In this document: piece by piece, positions 7,061-27,884 of the stretch
Layout of the letters: each line of letters begins with the position of its first letter
How positions within the stretch are numbered: position 1 is the first letter of the stretch
NCBI GenBank assembly: GCA_001443375.1
Contig: LDXM01000002.1
Location: 1-64,000, forward strand
DNA: 64,000 nucleotides
Direction: 5' to 3'
From: Chloroflexi bacterium CSP1-4
GTDB lineage: Bacteria; Chloroflexota; Limnocylindria; Limnocylindrales; CSP1-4
Program-made: the position numbers and the translations under genes
Notes under the pieces: generated by a model
What the model saw: the letters and a program-made list of their open reading frames with translations, nothing else
Databases searched by the model: none
What the model was told of the DNA's origin: nothing

Positions 7061-7197
7061 GCCTCGCCGCGCCGCCGCCACACGCTCGAACCTCATCTCG
7101 GCGCTCAGCAGCGCCAAGGAGTTCGCCATCGCGGCCCGGTCGCACATGCCCGCGTGGTCCTTGCTAGGCTGCCCAGGATGATCGGGGCGAAGATCGC

Positions 7198-19199: not shown

Positions 19200-19303
19200 G
19201 CAGTCGATCCGGCCACGCCTGCCGGCCGCCCAGCTGTCGCCTACTGCACTATCCGGCTGCGAACACGGGAAACGCCCCCGGTCGTCGGGCTGGCGCGCGC
19301 CGA

Positions 19304-19507
19304 CTACTTCGCGCGCCGCTTCTGGGCGGGGATGACCCGGGCGCTCCCGGCGGTGGGCCAGAGCGTGCTCTCGTGCCCGTCGTCCCAGAGCACCCGATAG
19401 TGCGTCCCGTAGGGGGCCACGATGACCTCGAGGATGTCGCCTTCCCGGGCGGGCTGGCCCACCTTCTCCGACTCGACGACGATCCGGTCGCGGGTCTTGC
19501 CGACCAT
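19304..19507 (-). CDS. DUF1918 domain protein
   Basis: 67 residues from the ATG at 19507, which is preceded by an excellent GGGAGGTGAT ribosome site 4 nt away; the ORF-track start at 19606 lacks this. The whole chain matches DUF1918 (RDRIVVESEKVGQP, GTHYRVLWDDGHES, WPTAGSARV), a small SH3-like fold common in Actinobacteria and Chloroflexota. Function unknown. It lies convergent to the GH18-like gene. Confidence 0.87.
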   Translation of the reverse strand: MVGKTRDRIVVESEKVGQPAREGDILEVIVAPYGTHYRVLWDDGHESTLWPTAGSARVIPAQKRRAK

Positions 19508-19785
19508 CCCGATCACCTCCCTGCCCGGCATCTCGCCCCGGACCACCGCGGACGTCCGCCCGCGTGAGGTCGAGACACCGCCCGATCGTGCCACCGATGA
19601 CGGCATCCGGCCAGTGCCGGCCGGCCCAGGCCGATCGCGGCCAGCTCAGGCTGCTGCCTCCGCATCGTAGTCGGTGAGCTTGACACCAGTCGGGGGGCCA
19701 CCCCGATTCGGCGAATGCCGTAGGCTGACCGCCAGCAAGCCCGCGGCTCCGTCCCGTCACCCAGCGTCCCCGCACGAGAGCATCG

Positions 19786-22003: not shown

Positions 22004-22229
22004 CCGGCGACAACGCCTGAAGAACGGCTCGGCCGCGGATCAAGGGGCTGCCATGACCCGACCTGGGGCCCGTTCCGCGACCGGACCCACCCGGTCCCCG
22101 GCAACCACGAACCGGCGTCGCTGGATGCGGTGCTTGGGCTTGTCCTACTCGGCTGAGGTTCGCGGTCTGCCCATCGCGGTCGGGCATTCTTGTGCCGGCC
22201 GTGCCAGCTTCGTCGACACGATCCACCGA

Positions 22230-22259
22230 CACGATGGCATGCGTAGGCTCAGAATCGTG
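22230..22259. repeat. Dispersed 30-nt element with terminal inverted repeat, copy 1
   Basis: CACGAT ... ATCGTG inverted repeat enclosing GGCATGCGTAGGCTCA. A second copy lies at 27158-27187; over the 29 nt after the first base the two differ at only two positions. It sits in a 334-nt gap upstream of the B3/B4 gene, where I see no other gene. The internal TAGGCT could be a -10 box, so the element may be a conserved promoter or a small palindromic repeat. Confidence 0.7.
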
Positions 22260-22294
22260 GGTGACCGCCCAGGAGCGCCATCCTGAGGCGCCTC

Positions 22295-23020
22295 GTGTGC
22301 GAGACTCGTCGCGTGGCGCACTTCCGCTATGACCCGGGCATCATCGAGCGCTTCCCGGCGGTCGTCGGCGGCGTCATCCACGCCACCGGCGTCCACAACG
22401 ACCCGACGCCGCCCGGACTCGCCGCAGCCTTCCACGACGAGACGCGCGCGGTACGCACGCGGATCGGCGAGACGCCCCTCAGCGAGCTGCCCACGCTGGC
22501 GGCCTGGCGCAAGGTGTTCCGCGGCTTCGGCGTCGATCCGACGCAGTACCGCTCGGCGGCCGAGGCACTCCTGCGGCGCCTGACGAAGCAGGGCGAGCTG
22601 CCGTCCATCGGGACGCTGGTGGATCTCGCGAACCTCGTGAGCATCCGCTACGCGCTGCCCGTCGCGATCTTCGACCAGCGCGGGATCTCCGGCGGCACGA
22701 TCGTCCGGTTCGCCCGCGGTGACGAGCGCTGGGTCGACCTCGGCTCGAGCCAGACCGCGCACCCGGAGCCCGGCGAGGTGATCTTCGCCGATGAGGCGGA
22801 CGTCGTGAGCGCCCGCCGCTGGTGCTGGCGGCAGAGCGCCGGGAGTGCCGCGCGAGAGGACACGACCGAGATCCTCGTCACGGTCGAAGGCCATCATGGA
22901 ACGGCCGACCGCGACGTGACGCGGGCGCTCGCGGACCTGGAGGCACTCCTCGTGACCCACGCGGCGCCGGCCACGATCCGCAGCGCCGTGCTGAGCGCCG
23001 GGGACGCAGCGTTCGAGTAG
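22295..23020 (+). CDS. B3/B4 tRNA-binding-domain protein
   Basis: 241 residues from GTG 22295, with an in-frame GTG at 22313 as alternative. The core matches the B3/B4 domain of the phenylalanyl-tRNA synthetase beta chain as found in stand-alone proteins (VHNDPTPPGLAAAF, LAAWRKVFRGFGVDPTQYRSA, LVDLANLVSIRYALPVAIFD). Stand-alone members are thought to edit or bind aminoacyl-tRNA or amino acids, but their roles are poorly known. The dispersed repeat element sits 36 nt upstream. Confidence 0.85.
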   Translation: MCETRRVAHFRYDPGIIERFPAVVGGVIHATGVHNDPTPPGLAAAFHDETRAVRTRIGETPLSELPTLAAWRKVFRGFGVDPTQYRSAAEALLRRLTKQGELPSIGTLVDLANLVSIRYALPVAIFDQRGISGGTIVRFARGDERWVDLGSSQTAHPEPGEVIFADEADVVSARRWCWRQSAGSAAREDTTEILVTVEGHHGTADRDVTRALADLEALLVTHAAPATIRSAVLSAGDAAFE

Positions 23021-23609
23021 CGCACGCCGTCACCAACGGCACCGTGCCACCGGCCGCGGTCGCCTGGGGTGGCCCGGGGGACACCAAGGGACGGCGCGGC
23101 CGGCTAGTCACGAGGTACGATCATGCTGGTGCGAGAACCCCGTCGCCATCCCTCAGGCTGTCACGACGCAGCGAATCCGCCGAGCGGGGGCGCTACCGAA
23201 GGATCCAGACGACCGAGCGGGAGCCGCCCGAGGCGAGACTTGTCTGGCCGACGGCGACGAGGCCCGCCGGACCCATCGCGAGACCCGACAGGCTGGTCCT
23301 GCGGTGATCCGCTGTTGGGCTCGTCCGCCGTAGACGTCGCACAGCGCCGACTCCGGCGCCGGGTGGGGACTGGCGCCAGCGAAGCTGACAGTATGCGCAC
23401 GTTCGACGGGGAGGGCGCCGCGGTCGGGGACATAACAGTCGACGATGGGATGGCCCTGCCCGGGATCAGTGGCGCCGGAGCTCGACGAGAGGTCGGCAAC
23501 CACGACACCACCAGCGCCCCGATCAGGACATCGCGCCAGGACGCCGGGACGGCTCCCGGGGCGCCGGCACCGGGCCCGTCCGCCACGAGGGCCACGGGTC
23601 CGGCCTCCG
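23021..23609. other. 589-nt gap between convergent genes with no supported gene
   Basis: This region lies between the B3/B4 gene (+) and the UPF0182 gene (-). ORFs on both strands are Arg/Gly/Pro-rich and show no domain. One minus-strand ORF (23161-23613) begins with a GTG overlapping the UPF0182 stop but is not convincing. No tRNA, rRNA or clear terminator was found. Confidence 0.5.
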
Positions 23610-26600
23610 TCACGGCGCGGGCGCGGCCGAGGGAAGCGGACTCGGGCTCACGCCCACCAGGAGCTGCAGCTGGCGGAGCGCCTCCTCGACCAGCCGGATC
23701 TCCTCGCCGTAGCGGGCGAAGTCGCCGTCGCGCAGCGCGGCCTGCGCCAGCTCGAAGTGGAGGTTGGCGTAGTCGATCAGCCCCTGGAGATCGCCGGCCG
23801 GCGGGGTGGTCCCCGGTCCGGGCGACGGCCGGGGGGTGGGCACCGGTCCGGGACCCGGCGATGGGGTGGGCCCGGGTGAGGGACCCGGACCCGGGCCCCC
23901 GCCCTCGATCTCGAGGAGCTGACGGAGCGCGTCGCCGAGCGTCTCGGCCCAGACGACCTCGCTCGGCGAGGCGACGACGATCCTCTGGAACTGCGGGAAC
24001 TTCGCGGCGGTGGACTGGAGGTAGACCGGCTGGAGGTAGATGATCGAGTCCTGGACCGGGACCACGATGAGGTTGCCCCGGATGACCGTCGAGCCGGCCT
24101 GGCTCCAGAGGGTGATCTGGGCGCTGATCACTGGGTCGGCGTCGATCTGGGCTTCGATCTGGGCCGGGCCGAAGATCGTCGTGTCGGCCGGGAAGCGGTA
24201 CACGCGGACCTGGCCACGGTGCGGGTCGTCGTTGCGGGCGGCCGCCCAGGCGATCATGTTCGGGCGCCCCTGGGCGACCATCGGCTGGAGGAGCAGGAAC
24301 TCGTCGTCCGCCTCACCGGGCATCCGCATGATCACGTAGTACGCCTCGCTGGGGAGGCTCTGCTCGCTTCCCTGCCCCAGCGGCGTCGTCCAGAGGTCCT
24401 GCTGCTGGAAGAAGGTCAGCGTGTTCTCCACGTGGTACCGGCCGTACATCGCCGTCTGGACGTTGAACAGCTCCTCCGGGTAGCGGAGGTGGGGAAGGAG
24501 ATCGGCCGGCATCTCGTCGAGCGGGCGGAACAGGCCGGGGAAGATCCCGCCGTAGGCCTGCACCAGCGGGTCCGAGGGATCGGCGACATAGAAGCTCATC
24601 CGCCCGTCGTAGGCGTTCATCACGATCTTCACGCTGTTGCGGATGTAGTTGAAGGGCGCCCGGTCCAGCCCCGTCCGCACGAAGCTCGTCGGGAAGAACG
24701 ACTGGGCGTGCGGGAAACGATCCGAGACCGTGTAGGCGTCGGCGATCCAGACCAGGCGGCCCTCGGCGGTGACCACGAGATACGGGTCCTTGTCGTAGCG
24801 CAGGAACGGCGCGATCCGCGGCAGCCGGTCGAAGAGCGATCGACGGAAGAGCAGCTGGCTCTGGTTGGTGACCTGGTCGCTGATTAGCAGGTTGAGGTCG
24901 CGGAAGCGAAGAGCGAAGAGCAGCCGCTCGAGGGTCCGGTCCAGCCGGATCCCGGTGGTCCCGGACCAGCGGGTCTCGATCGCCTGTTCGCCGCCCGCTT
25001 GCTGGCTCCCCTGCGGGAAGTCGAACTCGGGCTGCTTCGCGCCGACGATGACATAGTCGATCGTCGGTCGCTCGCCGAAGTAGATCCGGGGCTCCGTGAC
25101 GACGGGCGCCCCGTCGGACGAGACCGGCGGCAGGTTGCGGATGAACAGGCGCGGCTCGCCGTTGCTGACGACCTCGTTCACCGGGACCATCGCCAGGCCG
25201 ATGCCGTGGGTGTAGATGATCCGCTCGTTCAGCCAGCCGATCGCGTTGGGGTTCTTCTCGAGGGCCAGCTCGCGGGCCGAGAGCATCACCTGGCGGCGCT
25301 CGCCGCCGATGTCGTAGCGGTCCGTGTCCACATCGAAGAAGTCGTAGTACTGGCGGACCGTCTGGAGCTGGTCGAGCGTGTCGCCCAGCGGCCGGTAGTC
25401 CCACAGCCGGGCGTTGCCGAAGGTGGCCGCCTCGTCGGCGATCTTCTCGGCGGTCAGGGCCTGGTCGCCCTTGTAGTCGCGGGTCTCCCAGCCGTCCAGC
25501 CCGAAGGCGAGGCGGGTCATCGCGATGTTGTTGCCGATGTATCGCTCTTCCTTCTGGTAGGGGTTGGGATCCACCGTGAAGCGCTGGATCGCCTCCGGGT
25601 AGAGGGTGCCCAGGACGAGCGACGCGCTGAACCAGATCAGGACGGCCATGACCAGCGGCACCACCCAGCGGGTGAACGCCCCGCCCACGAGGAAGGCCGC
25701 GGTGAGCGCCGAGATGACGGTCAGGACGTCGCGGCCGAGGAAGCGGGCGGCCTCGTCGGTGTAGCTCACGCCGCTGGCGACACCGTTGGCGGTGTAGGCG
25801 AACTCGAACTTGTCGAGCTGATAGCCGGCAGCGGTCGAGAGCAGGTAGAGCCCGCCGAGCACGGCCAGGTGGACGCGGACCGGTGTCGTGAACACCTCGC
25901 CGCCCCGCACCGCCGAGGCCAGGTAGCGGGCGAACGCGATCGCCAGCGCACCGAGGACCAGGCCGTTCAGCGCTCCCTGGACCAGCCGGAGAAAGGGCAG
26001 GTCGAACAGGAAGAAGCCGATGTCGCGGCCGAACACGGGGTCCGGCCACCCGAAGGCCACCTGGTTGCGCCAGAGCAGGATCGTCTCCCAGTCCGAGGCG
26101 ATGCCGCCGGCGATCAGCAGGGCCGCGAAAAGGCCGAGGGCGATCAGGATCGGGGTCGCCATCGGCGTGAGGTCCGGGATCTCCGCGACGGTGGGGCCCA
26201 CCGGGCGCGGACCGGCCGGACCACGACCGAACGGGTCACCCGGACCGAAGCCGCCCGGACCGAAGCGCCCGCGCTCGGCATTGCGGGCCGCCTCCGACAT
26301 GCGCTCGAAGAAGCCGCGGATGGCGCCACCCTCGCCACCGCCCGTGGGAGCGAGTCGCCCGGCCAGCCAGAGGTTGCCGAGCAGGACGACCGCGGCCACG
26401 ACGATGCCACCGGCGAACAGGAGGACCGAGGCGCCGAGCCGGGGCCAGAAGACGCTCTCGTAGCCGACGCTGGAGTACCAGATCGCGTCGGTCCACAGGT
26501 CCAGGCCGAAGCTAAGCAGCCCGAAGATGAAGAGCGCGGCGAGAAGCAGGAATGTTAGCCAGAATCGCCGGACGGCTCGCCGCAGCCCGCCCCTGGCGCC

Positions 26601-26795
26601 GCCGTCGTCGTTCGGGCCACCTCGGCGCATGCTCGGGGGACGTCCTCCGCCGGCGCCGCCCCCGCCCCGCCGAGCTGGCCTGGGTGGCGGCTCCTCCTGC
26701 CCGTCCGCGTCGTCGGGGGCGCCCGGCTGGTCGCCGCTCGCCGGGGCCTGTCGGCGCCGGAGGTCGTCCCTGAACTCATCGAACATGTCGCGCAT
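23610..26795 (-). CDS. UPF0182 family large membrane protein
   Basis: 1061 residues. N-terminal cytoplasmic Pro/Arg-rich segment, about seven TM helices in residues 75-390 (WLTFLLLAALFIFGLLSFGLDLWTDAIWYSSVGYESVFW is diagnostic), a large extracytoplasmic region with YIGNNIAMTRLAFGLDGWE and YTHGIGLAMVPVNEVVSNGEP, then a Gly/Pro-rich linker and a C-terminal coiled-coil segment. The family is common in Actinobacteria and Chloroflexota and lacks an established function. The Pro-rich linker and tail are typical low-complexity additions. Confidence 0.93.
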   Translation of the reverse strand: MRDMFDEFRDDLRRRQAPASGDQPGAPDDADGQEEPPPRPARRGGGGAGGGRPPSMRRGGPNDDGGARGGLRRAVRRFWLTFLLLAALFIFGLLSFGLDLWTDAIWYSSVGYESVFWPRLGASVLLFAGGIVVAAVVLLGNLWLAGRLAPTGGGEGGAIRGFFERMSEAARNAERGRFGPGGFGPGDPFGRGPAGPRPVGPTVAEIPDLTPMATPILIALGLFAALLIAGGIASDWETILLWRNQVAFGWPDPVFGRDIGFFLFDLPFLRLVQGALNGLVLGALAIAFARYLASAVRGGEVFTTPVRVHLAVLGGLYLLSTAAGYQLDKFEFAYTANGVASGVSYTDEAARFLGRDVLTVISALTAAFLVGGAFTRWVVPLVMAVLIWFSASLVLGTLYPEAIQRFTVDPNPYQKEERYIGNNIAMTRLAFGLDGWETRDYKGDQALTAEKIADEAATFGNARLWDYRPLGDTLDQLQTVRQYYDFFDVDTDRYDIGGERRQVMLSARELALEKNPNAIGWLNERIIYTHGIGLAMVPVNEVVSNGEPRLFIRNLPPVSSDGAPVVTEPRIYFGERPTIDYVIVGAKQPEFDFPQGSQQAGGEQAIETRWSGTTGIRLDRTLERLLFALRFRDLNLLISDQVTNQSQLLFRRSLFDRLPRIAPFLRYDKDPYLVVTAEGRLVWIADAYTVSDRFPHAQSFFPTSFVRTGLDRAPFNYIRNSVKIVMNAYDGRMSFYVADPSDPLVQAYGGIFPGLFRPLDEMPADLLPHLRYPEELFNVQTAMYGRYHVENTLTFFQQQDLWTTPLGQGSEQSLPSEAYYVIMRMPGEADDEFLLLQPMVAQGRPNMIAWAAARNDDPHRGQVRVYRFPADTTIFGPAQIEAQIDADPVISAQITLWSQAGSTVIRGNLIVVPVQDSIIYLQPVYLQSTAAKFPQFQRIVVASPSEVVWAETLGDALRQLLEIEGGGPGPGPSPGPTPSPGPGPVPTPRPSPGPGTTPPAGDLQGLIDYANLHFELAQAALRDGDFARYGEEIRLVEEALRQLQLLVGVSPSPLPSAAPAP

Positions 26796-26822
26796 CCAAG
26801 CCAGTCTACCCGGCCGGCGGCA

Positions 26823-27071
26823 TCACAATTCCGCGAGCGCCCCCACGGCCCCCCGGAAGGCCGCCAGAACGGCCGAAGCGAGTTCCGTCGGACGAAGCGT
26901 CGCCGTGCGCGCCGGCTCCCACTTGAACGCGGCCCGGGCGGCGGCCGGCACGCTCCATGGATCGGCCGGGGCGTCGGGCGGGACGAGCGGGGCGAGACGG
27001 ATCGCCATGCGGCCGTTCTCTTCCAGGATGAGCCCGGAGCTGGGCGACCAGCGGCGGGCGGTGGCCATCAT
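26823..27071 (-). CDS. Small hypothetical protein upstream of UPF0182
   Basis: 82 residues (start MMATARRWSPSSGLILEENG). It has balanced composition with alternating polar and hydrophobic residues and no TM helix, and sits 27 nt upstream of the UPF0182 start on the same strand. I recognise no family. Codon-position GC looks normal for the neighbourhood, so it may be a real two-gene operon member, but it could also be spurious. Confidence 0.45.
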   Translation of the reverse strand: MMATARRWSPSSGLILEENGRMAIRLAPLVPPDAPADPWSVPAAARAAFKWEPARTATLRPTELASAVLAAFRGAVGALAEL

Positions 27072-27157
27072 GGAGCGACGGCTGAGATCCGAGCCGACCG
27101 CCGATGTGGTCGGTGCCGGCCGGCGATCAGACCGAGGTTAGGGCGCCCTCTCCCCCA

Positions 27158-27187
27158 TACGATGGCATGCGTAGGCTCAACATCGTG
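27158..27187. repeat. Dispersed 30-nt element with terminal inverted repeat, copy 2
   Basis: TACGATGGCATGCGTAGGCT...ATCGTG. It aligns to 22230-22259 with identical spacing between the ACGAT and ATCGTG ends. It lies in the 181-nt gap between two minus-strand genes, so it does not sit upstream of any obvious plus-strand gene. Confidence 0.7.
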
Positions 27188-27252
27188 CGAGCGACAGGAG
27201 CGGCAACCGACGAGCGGAGCGGTGGTGGACACGGCGCTGAGGCCGGCCACAT

Positions 27253-27648
27253 TCAGTGTCCATCCCGCGGTGGGCCACCAGGCCTGATCGTCCTCAGCGT
27301 GAGGATGTGCGCCGTCACCGCAACCGCGATGGCGGCGAGCAGGAACCTGAGCCAGACGGGGTCAACGGCAAGGATGCTGATCCCGATGAAGAGCCACAGC
27401 ATCGCGATGGCGAAGATCTTGACGTTCAGCTTGATGGCCCGCCGGTCGCGATAGTCCCTGATGTACTCGCCCAGGAGGCGGTTGTTGACGAGCCAGTCGT
27501 GCAGGCGCGCCGAACCGCGGGCGTAGCAGGCGGCCGCCAGCAGCAGAAACGGGGTGGTGGGCAGCACCGGCAGGAATATGCCGATGATGCCCATGGCGAG
27601 CGCCACGGTGCCGCAGATGACGAGTGCGGCCCGAGTGCCCTTCCTCAC
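27253..27648 (-). CDS. DUF454 (YbaN-like) inner-membrane protein
   Basis: 131 residues with the DUF454 pattern: a TM with GIIGIFLPVLPTTPFLLLAAACYARGS, then LHDWLVNNRLLGEYIRDYRDRRAI, and two more TM helices. Family members are small membrane proteins of unknown function, found near haem or respiration genes in some genomes. No such neighbours are present here. Start ATG 27648. Confidence 0.9.
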   Translation of the reverse strand: MRKGTRAALVICGTVALAMGIIGIFLPVLPTTPFLLLAAACYARGSARLHDWLVNNRLLGEYIRDYRDRRAIKLNVKIFAIAMLWLFIGISILAVDPVWLRFLLAAIAVAVTAHILTLRTIRPGGPPRDGH

Positions 27649-27884
27649 GACAAGACCTTCGCTCGGATGCGAGGCGGCCCCAGCGCCGCCGGACTCGGCC
27701 GGCCTCCGCGAGTCCCCGAGCCGAGGCCGCTGGCGATGGTGCCCACGGGTCGACGCTCAGCCGGAGCGGGTCGGTGTCGCCAGTGGCTCGGCGCGGTCCC
27801 GGCGGCCAACGTGCGGGCCACGGACCGGAAGCGCGGCGACCGAGTCGTAAGCAGTCAGGCCGTATCGCTCTCCGTCGCGATCGT

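Follow-up and report, generated by a model that had tools for sequence, protein, structure and literature searches.

The window analysed here comprises bases 1-64000 of contig C2 in the draft genome of Chloroflexi bacterium CSP1-4 (G000; 2.59 Mb, 65 contigs) and has a GC content of 71%. Two 30-nt copies of a short sequence lie on its forward strand, c1 at 22230-22259 (CACGATGGCATGCGTAGGCTCAGAATCGTG) and c2 at 27158-27187 (TACGATGGCATGCGTAGGCTCAACATCGTG), exactly where the original prediction had placed them. They are identical at 27 of 30 positions and share an exact 21-mer (22231-22251 in c1, 27159-27179 in c2), and the closing ATCGTG stands at equal spacing in both, so the common core and ending that had been claimed were recovered. 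A -10-like TAGGCT is found at 22244-22249 in c1, with ACC 16 nt upstream, and at 27172-27177 in c2; the hexamer also occurs elsewhere in the window, as had been noted, at 7165 and at 19721 (noted as 19719). When the window was dinucleotide-shuffled 100 times, none of the shuffled sequences contained a match to the 20-mer with at most three mismatches.

Both copies are intergenic and their neighbouring genes are unrelated, in agreement with the original prediction. c1 lies between a NAGPA-domain gene and a B3/4-domain gene (22319-23020, plus strand; Pfam PF03483, E 2.9e-23), which is downstream of c1, starts with GTG at 22319 and has close relatives in few genomes of the family. The likely -10 of this leaderless gene is GAGACT at 22307-22312 on the plus strand, six bases before the start; it is conserved at the B3/4 locus of genome G022, and c1 is absent there. 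Between the two copies is the gene of a UPF0182 membrane protein (23610-26795, minus strand; Pfam PF03699), whose leaderless -10, TAGACT at 26808-26803, is 7 nt ahead of its ATG. On the other side, c2 lies 65 nt past the stop of a DUF454 gene (27253-27648, minus strand; Pfam PF04304) and points into it. Upstream of the DUF454 gene, at 27770-27834 on the minus strand, a decayed riboswitch-like stretch of the c-di-GMP-II-GAG type scored 25.5 bits against a gathering score of 40, and its ortholog in the relative G015 (Chloroflexi MAG GWC2_73_18) scored 43.6 bits.

Some further features of the surroundings were recorded. An intact c-di-GMP-II-GAG riboswitch precedes the gene of a secreted protein, another precedes a surface-protein gene of G015, and a weaker one precedes the G015 DUF454 gene; together with the window stretch at 27770-27834, their positions are G000:C2:135603-135687 (L118:15603-15687), L063:2722-2805 and L204:1309-1396. 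The intergenic sequence at 22064-22153 of the window reads WGPFRDRTHPVPGNHEPASLDAVLGLVLLG*, which gave no Pfam match and, judged by its letters, looks like a metallophosphatase remnant.

The original prediction had described an inverted repeat. Arms of 6 bp are indeed present in c1 (CACGAT/ATCGTG) and c2 (ACGATG/CATCGT), but they are short, the copies fold only slightly better than shuffled sequences (z of -1.1 and -2.0), and the right arm is missing from every copy in other genomes. Since the arms are confined to the two window copies, what all copies have in common is the core, CGATGGCATGCGTAGGCTC. No palindrome or hairpin is conserved among the copies, and an inverted doublet is found only in the relative G059 (Chloroflexi MAG Chersky.27_23). 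A hairpin or terminator at the copies was rejected on the same folding values and on finding no terminator there. A known RNA was also rejected, as Rfam gave no match at the copies and its only relevant matches were the nearby c-di-GMP-II-GAG riboswitches.

Occurrence of the core in the genome and the family

In the whole of G000 no third match to the element was found within three mismatches. Hexamer counts, repeat listing and weight-matrix searches were performed on an 860-kb sample, about a third of this genome. In it the weight matrix detected no degenerate copies between scores 16 and 31, and c1 and c2 are among the very few dispersed exact repeat pairs of at least 18 bp, and likewise of at least 20 bp, with both copies intergenic; several longer exact repeats coincided with tRNA-gene sequence and the remainder was left unclassified. 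Two copies per 2.59 Mb and this gap in the scores mean that the sequence is not an abundant repeat, which bears on the suggestion of a REP-like element. Like REP and REPIN sequences (PMC8049555), the motif is short and extragenic, and in G059 it forms one inverted pair with a short spacer; unlike them, it has two copies per genome instead of tens to hundreds, no degenerate population in the sampled third and no conserved palindrome. A repeat of this type mobilised by a RAYT transposase is accordingly very improbable.

The exact 19-base core is present twice in G000 and once each in G015 and G059, which belong to other genera of the same family. Close variants were found twice in G014, from a third genus, and a single one, perhaps adding a fourth genus, at the end of a G161 contig. 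The motif thus occurs in about 5 of the 107 family genomes searched, at unrelated sites. Further copies, which the original prediction had proposed to count, are absent within G000 but present as exact copies across genera. When 84,980 prokaryote species were scanned for an exact 17-mer, eight matches were obtained, two of them G015 and G059, the only Chloroflexi records; the six others, from distant taxa, were taken as chance because they share no flank beyond the core. Viral contigs contained no exact match.

Could the similarity as a whole be accidental? Most matches with two or three mismatches in relatives are scattered and occur at or near control frequency, as chance would predict. However, none of the shuffled windows gave the motif, exact 17-mers are as rare as described, with two of them in the same family, and the similarity of the full copies reaches beyond the core, which refutes chance; we consider it scarcely credible. 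The motif is a genuine, rare and laterally spread sequence, since a few related genera also carry it, at unrelated positions, and its role is unproven.

The full copies in G000, G015, G059 and G014 are all intergenic with unrelated neighbours. The G015 copy (contig C14) has a surface-protein gene on one side and, at a distance of 24 bp, an IS481-like element on the other. In G059 a second, diverged copy faces the first across 49 bp, and about 100 bp away is a gene remnant which, by its C-terminal letters and without a database match, we take to be that of a transposase. The G059 copies facing inward, and the transposase genes or remnants near the G015 and G059 copies, are reminiscent of the ends of MITEs or insertion sequences. 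Unlike such ends, the motif has an inverted partner in G059 only, and the IS481-like element in G015 has TGTCA ends of its own, so that the motif as the end of this element was rejected. No transposase or integrase could be linked to the motif.

An 85-bp repeat (78% identity) was also seen in G014, at G014:C25:2597-2682 (L064) and G014:C135:17338-17422 (L256), one of its copies following a motif copy at a distance of about 60 nt. It has a terminator-like end, CCTAGGCTAGGTTTTCTT, and a block, GCGGAATCCCCCC, and is possibly an unnamed RNA or a terminator.

Probably exchanged modules, half-motifs and mosaic flanks

The UPF0182 gene with its flanks is 95.8% identical in DNA between G000 and G015, and the DUF454 module (27196-27822, minus strand) is 92% identical to its counterpart on G015:C47, whereas the other sampled loci of the two genomes show 66-78% identity. 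In addition, the order is swapped, G015 having DUF454 on the opposite side of UPF0182. Identities so far above those elsewhere indicate a recent lateral exchange of UPF0182 and DUF454 between the two genomes.

A breakpoint lies beside c2. The homology of the DUF454 module with G015 stops 9 bp from c2; at this breakpoint G015:C47 has CCTCCACACGATGGCATCTGAAGG in place of CCCCCATACGATGGCATGCGTAGG in the window and keeps just the left half of the c2 motif, CACGATGGCAT. A gene fragment on G015 contig C53 partially duplicates the gene that lies to the left of the motif on C14. Their coding sequences are about 75% identical; a stretch of 72 bp with 100% identity follows and ends mid-motif at ACACGATGGCA. 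When the left half was searched in ten genomes, G015 was the only one in which true half-sites, besides the window copies, were recognised; of the remaining matches, the four whose context was inspected lie within genes. Among full copies, flank similarity reaches past the core and is mosaic: c1 and G015:C14 agree towards the left (32 nt, 97%), whereas the G059 copy and G015 agree towards the right (36 nt, 94%).

These patterns fit lateral movement, with the motif moving along with gene modules or at their edge, or serving itself as a crossover site. It is possible, though we think it somewhat unlikely, that the core is a recombination site or the end of a non-autonomous mobile element and that its promoter-like letters are incidental; cutting or exchange at the core would then join its halves to different neighbours and shuffle single-gene modules. 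The half-motifs at two loci of G015, where the partner sequences part in the middle of the motif, the mosaic of left and right flanks, the displacement of the DUF454 module, bordered by the motif, with respect to UPF0182, and the two facing G059 copies close to the transposase remnant all speak for such a site. On the other hand, an inverted partner is missing near c1, c2 and the G015 and G014 copies, no recombinase is linked to the motif, the far end of the DUF454 module has no motif, and the G015:C47 half-site could equally be explained by a 27-nt deletion. A bolder version, in which a so far undescribed system uses the core for crossovers and thereby shuffles single-gene modules (DUF454, UPF0182, B3/4 and perhaps DUF1918) among the genera of this uncultured family of Chloroflexota, would account for half-sites and mosaic flanks as products of shuffling at the core, but we regard it as improbable.

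Two other repeats in G000 were noticed. A module of about 370 bp with a DUF1918 gene occurs twice, the copies being 97% identical, at 19274-19645 of the window and at G000:C3:109054-109424 (L124:9054-9424), and appears to be another small moving module. At G000:C3:100001-108104 (L124) there are repeated 3'-end fragments of a tRNA-Gly(CCC) gene, with the intact copy at L124:8029-8104, an arrangement reminiscent of an island anchored at a tRNA gene and containing several attachment-like repeats.

Promoter-like features of the core

TAGGCT fits a class of TAGnnT -10 hexamers enriched between genes in G000. In the 860-kb sample it was seen 13 times between genes against 3.4 expected, about fourfold in excess; TAGACT and TAGCAT are enriched there as well, and many of these hexamers lie 6-10 nt before a start codon. 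TANNNT at this distance from starts is the pattern of leaderless genes (PMC3160421). The TAGGCT of c1 and c2 is therefore a credible -10. An ACC-containing, weak -35-like stretch was found 16-18 nt upstream of it in most, not all, of the aligned copies, a pattern which, like the mosaic of the flanks, rests on 7-9 sequences because copies are few. A standard scan with the TTGACA/TATAAT consensus found nothing at the copies.

The -10-like reading that had been proposed for the hexamer is supported, but the copies are not clearly ahead of genes. Their orientation does not follow the neighbouring genes: c2, the G015 copy and both G014 copies are aimed at a gene on the opposite strand, towards its 3' end. 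Because B3/4 comes with a conserved leaderless promoter of its own and c2 is antisense to DUF454, neither window copy is clearly a gene promoter. The motif resembles leaderless-gene promoters (PMC3160421) in that TAGGCT has the TANNNT form, and in G000 many starts are preceded by TAGnnT at 6-10 nt; it differs in its conserved spacer and in that no convincing gene start follows c1 or c2 at 6-10 nt. Small leaderless open reading frames beginning 7 nt after TAGGCT (9 codons in c1, 89 in c2) were considered and rejected, the one in c2 running antisense through DUF454; no shared product of such frames appears in the other copies.

The spacer, ATGnCATGCG, is conserved between -35 and -10 as strongly as the -10 itself, and ordinary G000 promoters have no such conserved spacer. 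This would be expected of an operator-containing promoter in which a regulator of a very small regulon binds the spacer. However, the neighbouring genes are unrelated and different in every genome, the orientation is inconsistent, and the motif is confined to the few genomes mentioned. Orthologues of neighbouring genes also stand without it, namely B3/4 in G022 and, in G035, the small gene found beside a G014 copy. An operator is therefore an unlikely reading.

A proposed dispersed promoter-like block

We ranked a dispersed promoter-like block first, a recombination site or element end second and a small-regulon operator third; all three are based on few copies in draft genomes, in which a single breakpoint may be an artefact of assembly. 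Our tentative preference is thus for a laterally dispersed block that moved with small gene modules or at their edge, by an unproven mechanism. The shared block would comprise the core and up to about 48 nt including flanks, with a sigma-70-like promoter signature in which TAGGCT acts as the -10 and the weak ACC-containing stretch as the -35. Infrequent copying would have placed it between genes, at unrelated sites, in several genera of one Chloroflexota family, and it probably travels at the margin of small gene modules that are transferred laterally. If it is functional anywhere, we infer that it would act as an outward promoter, with a transcription start near the end of the block.

Sequences of this kind, termed putative mobile promoters, are reportedly the subject of 'Promoter propagation in prokaryotes' by Matus-Garcia, Nijveen and van Passel (2012). 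A putative mobile promoter is a short promoter-like intergenic sequence found at non-homologous sites in one genome and shared with other species. The motif is comparable in that c1 and c2 are near-identical at non-homologous loci of one genome and further copies occupy non-orthologous loci in other species (G015, G059 and G014). It differs in that its homology block is short, its copies are not consistently upstream of genes and its promoter activity is putative.

If real as read here, the motif would be a sequence of promoter size that spreads from genus to genus with no obvious transposase, at the edges of recently exchanged modules. The swapped order of DUF454 and UPF0182 offers a concrete site at which to seek the moving machinery, and the motif would help in studying the movement of regulatory DNA in uncultured, high-GC Chloroflexota.
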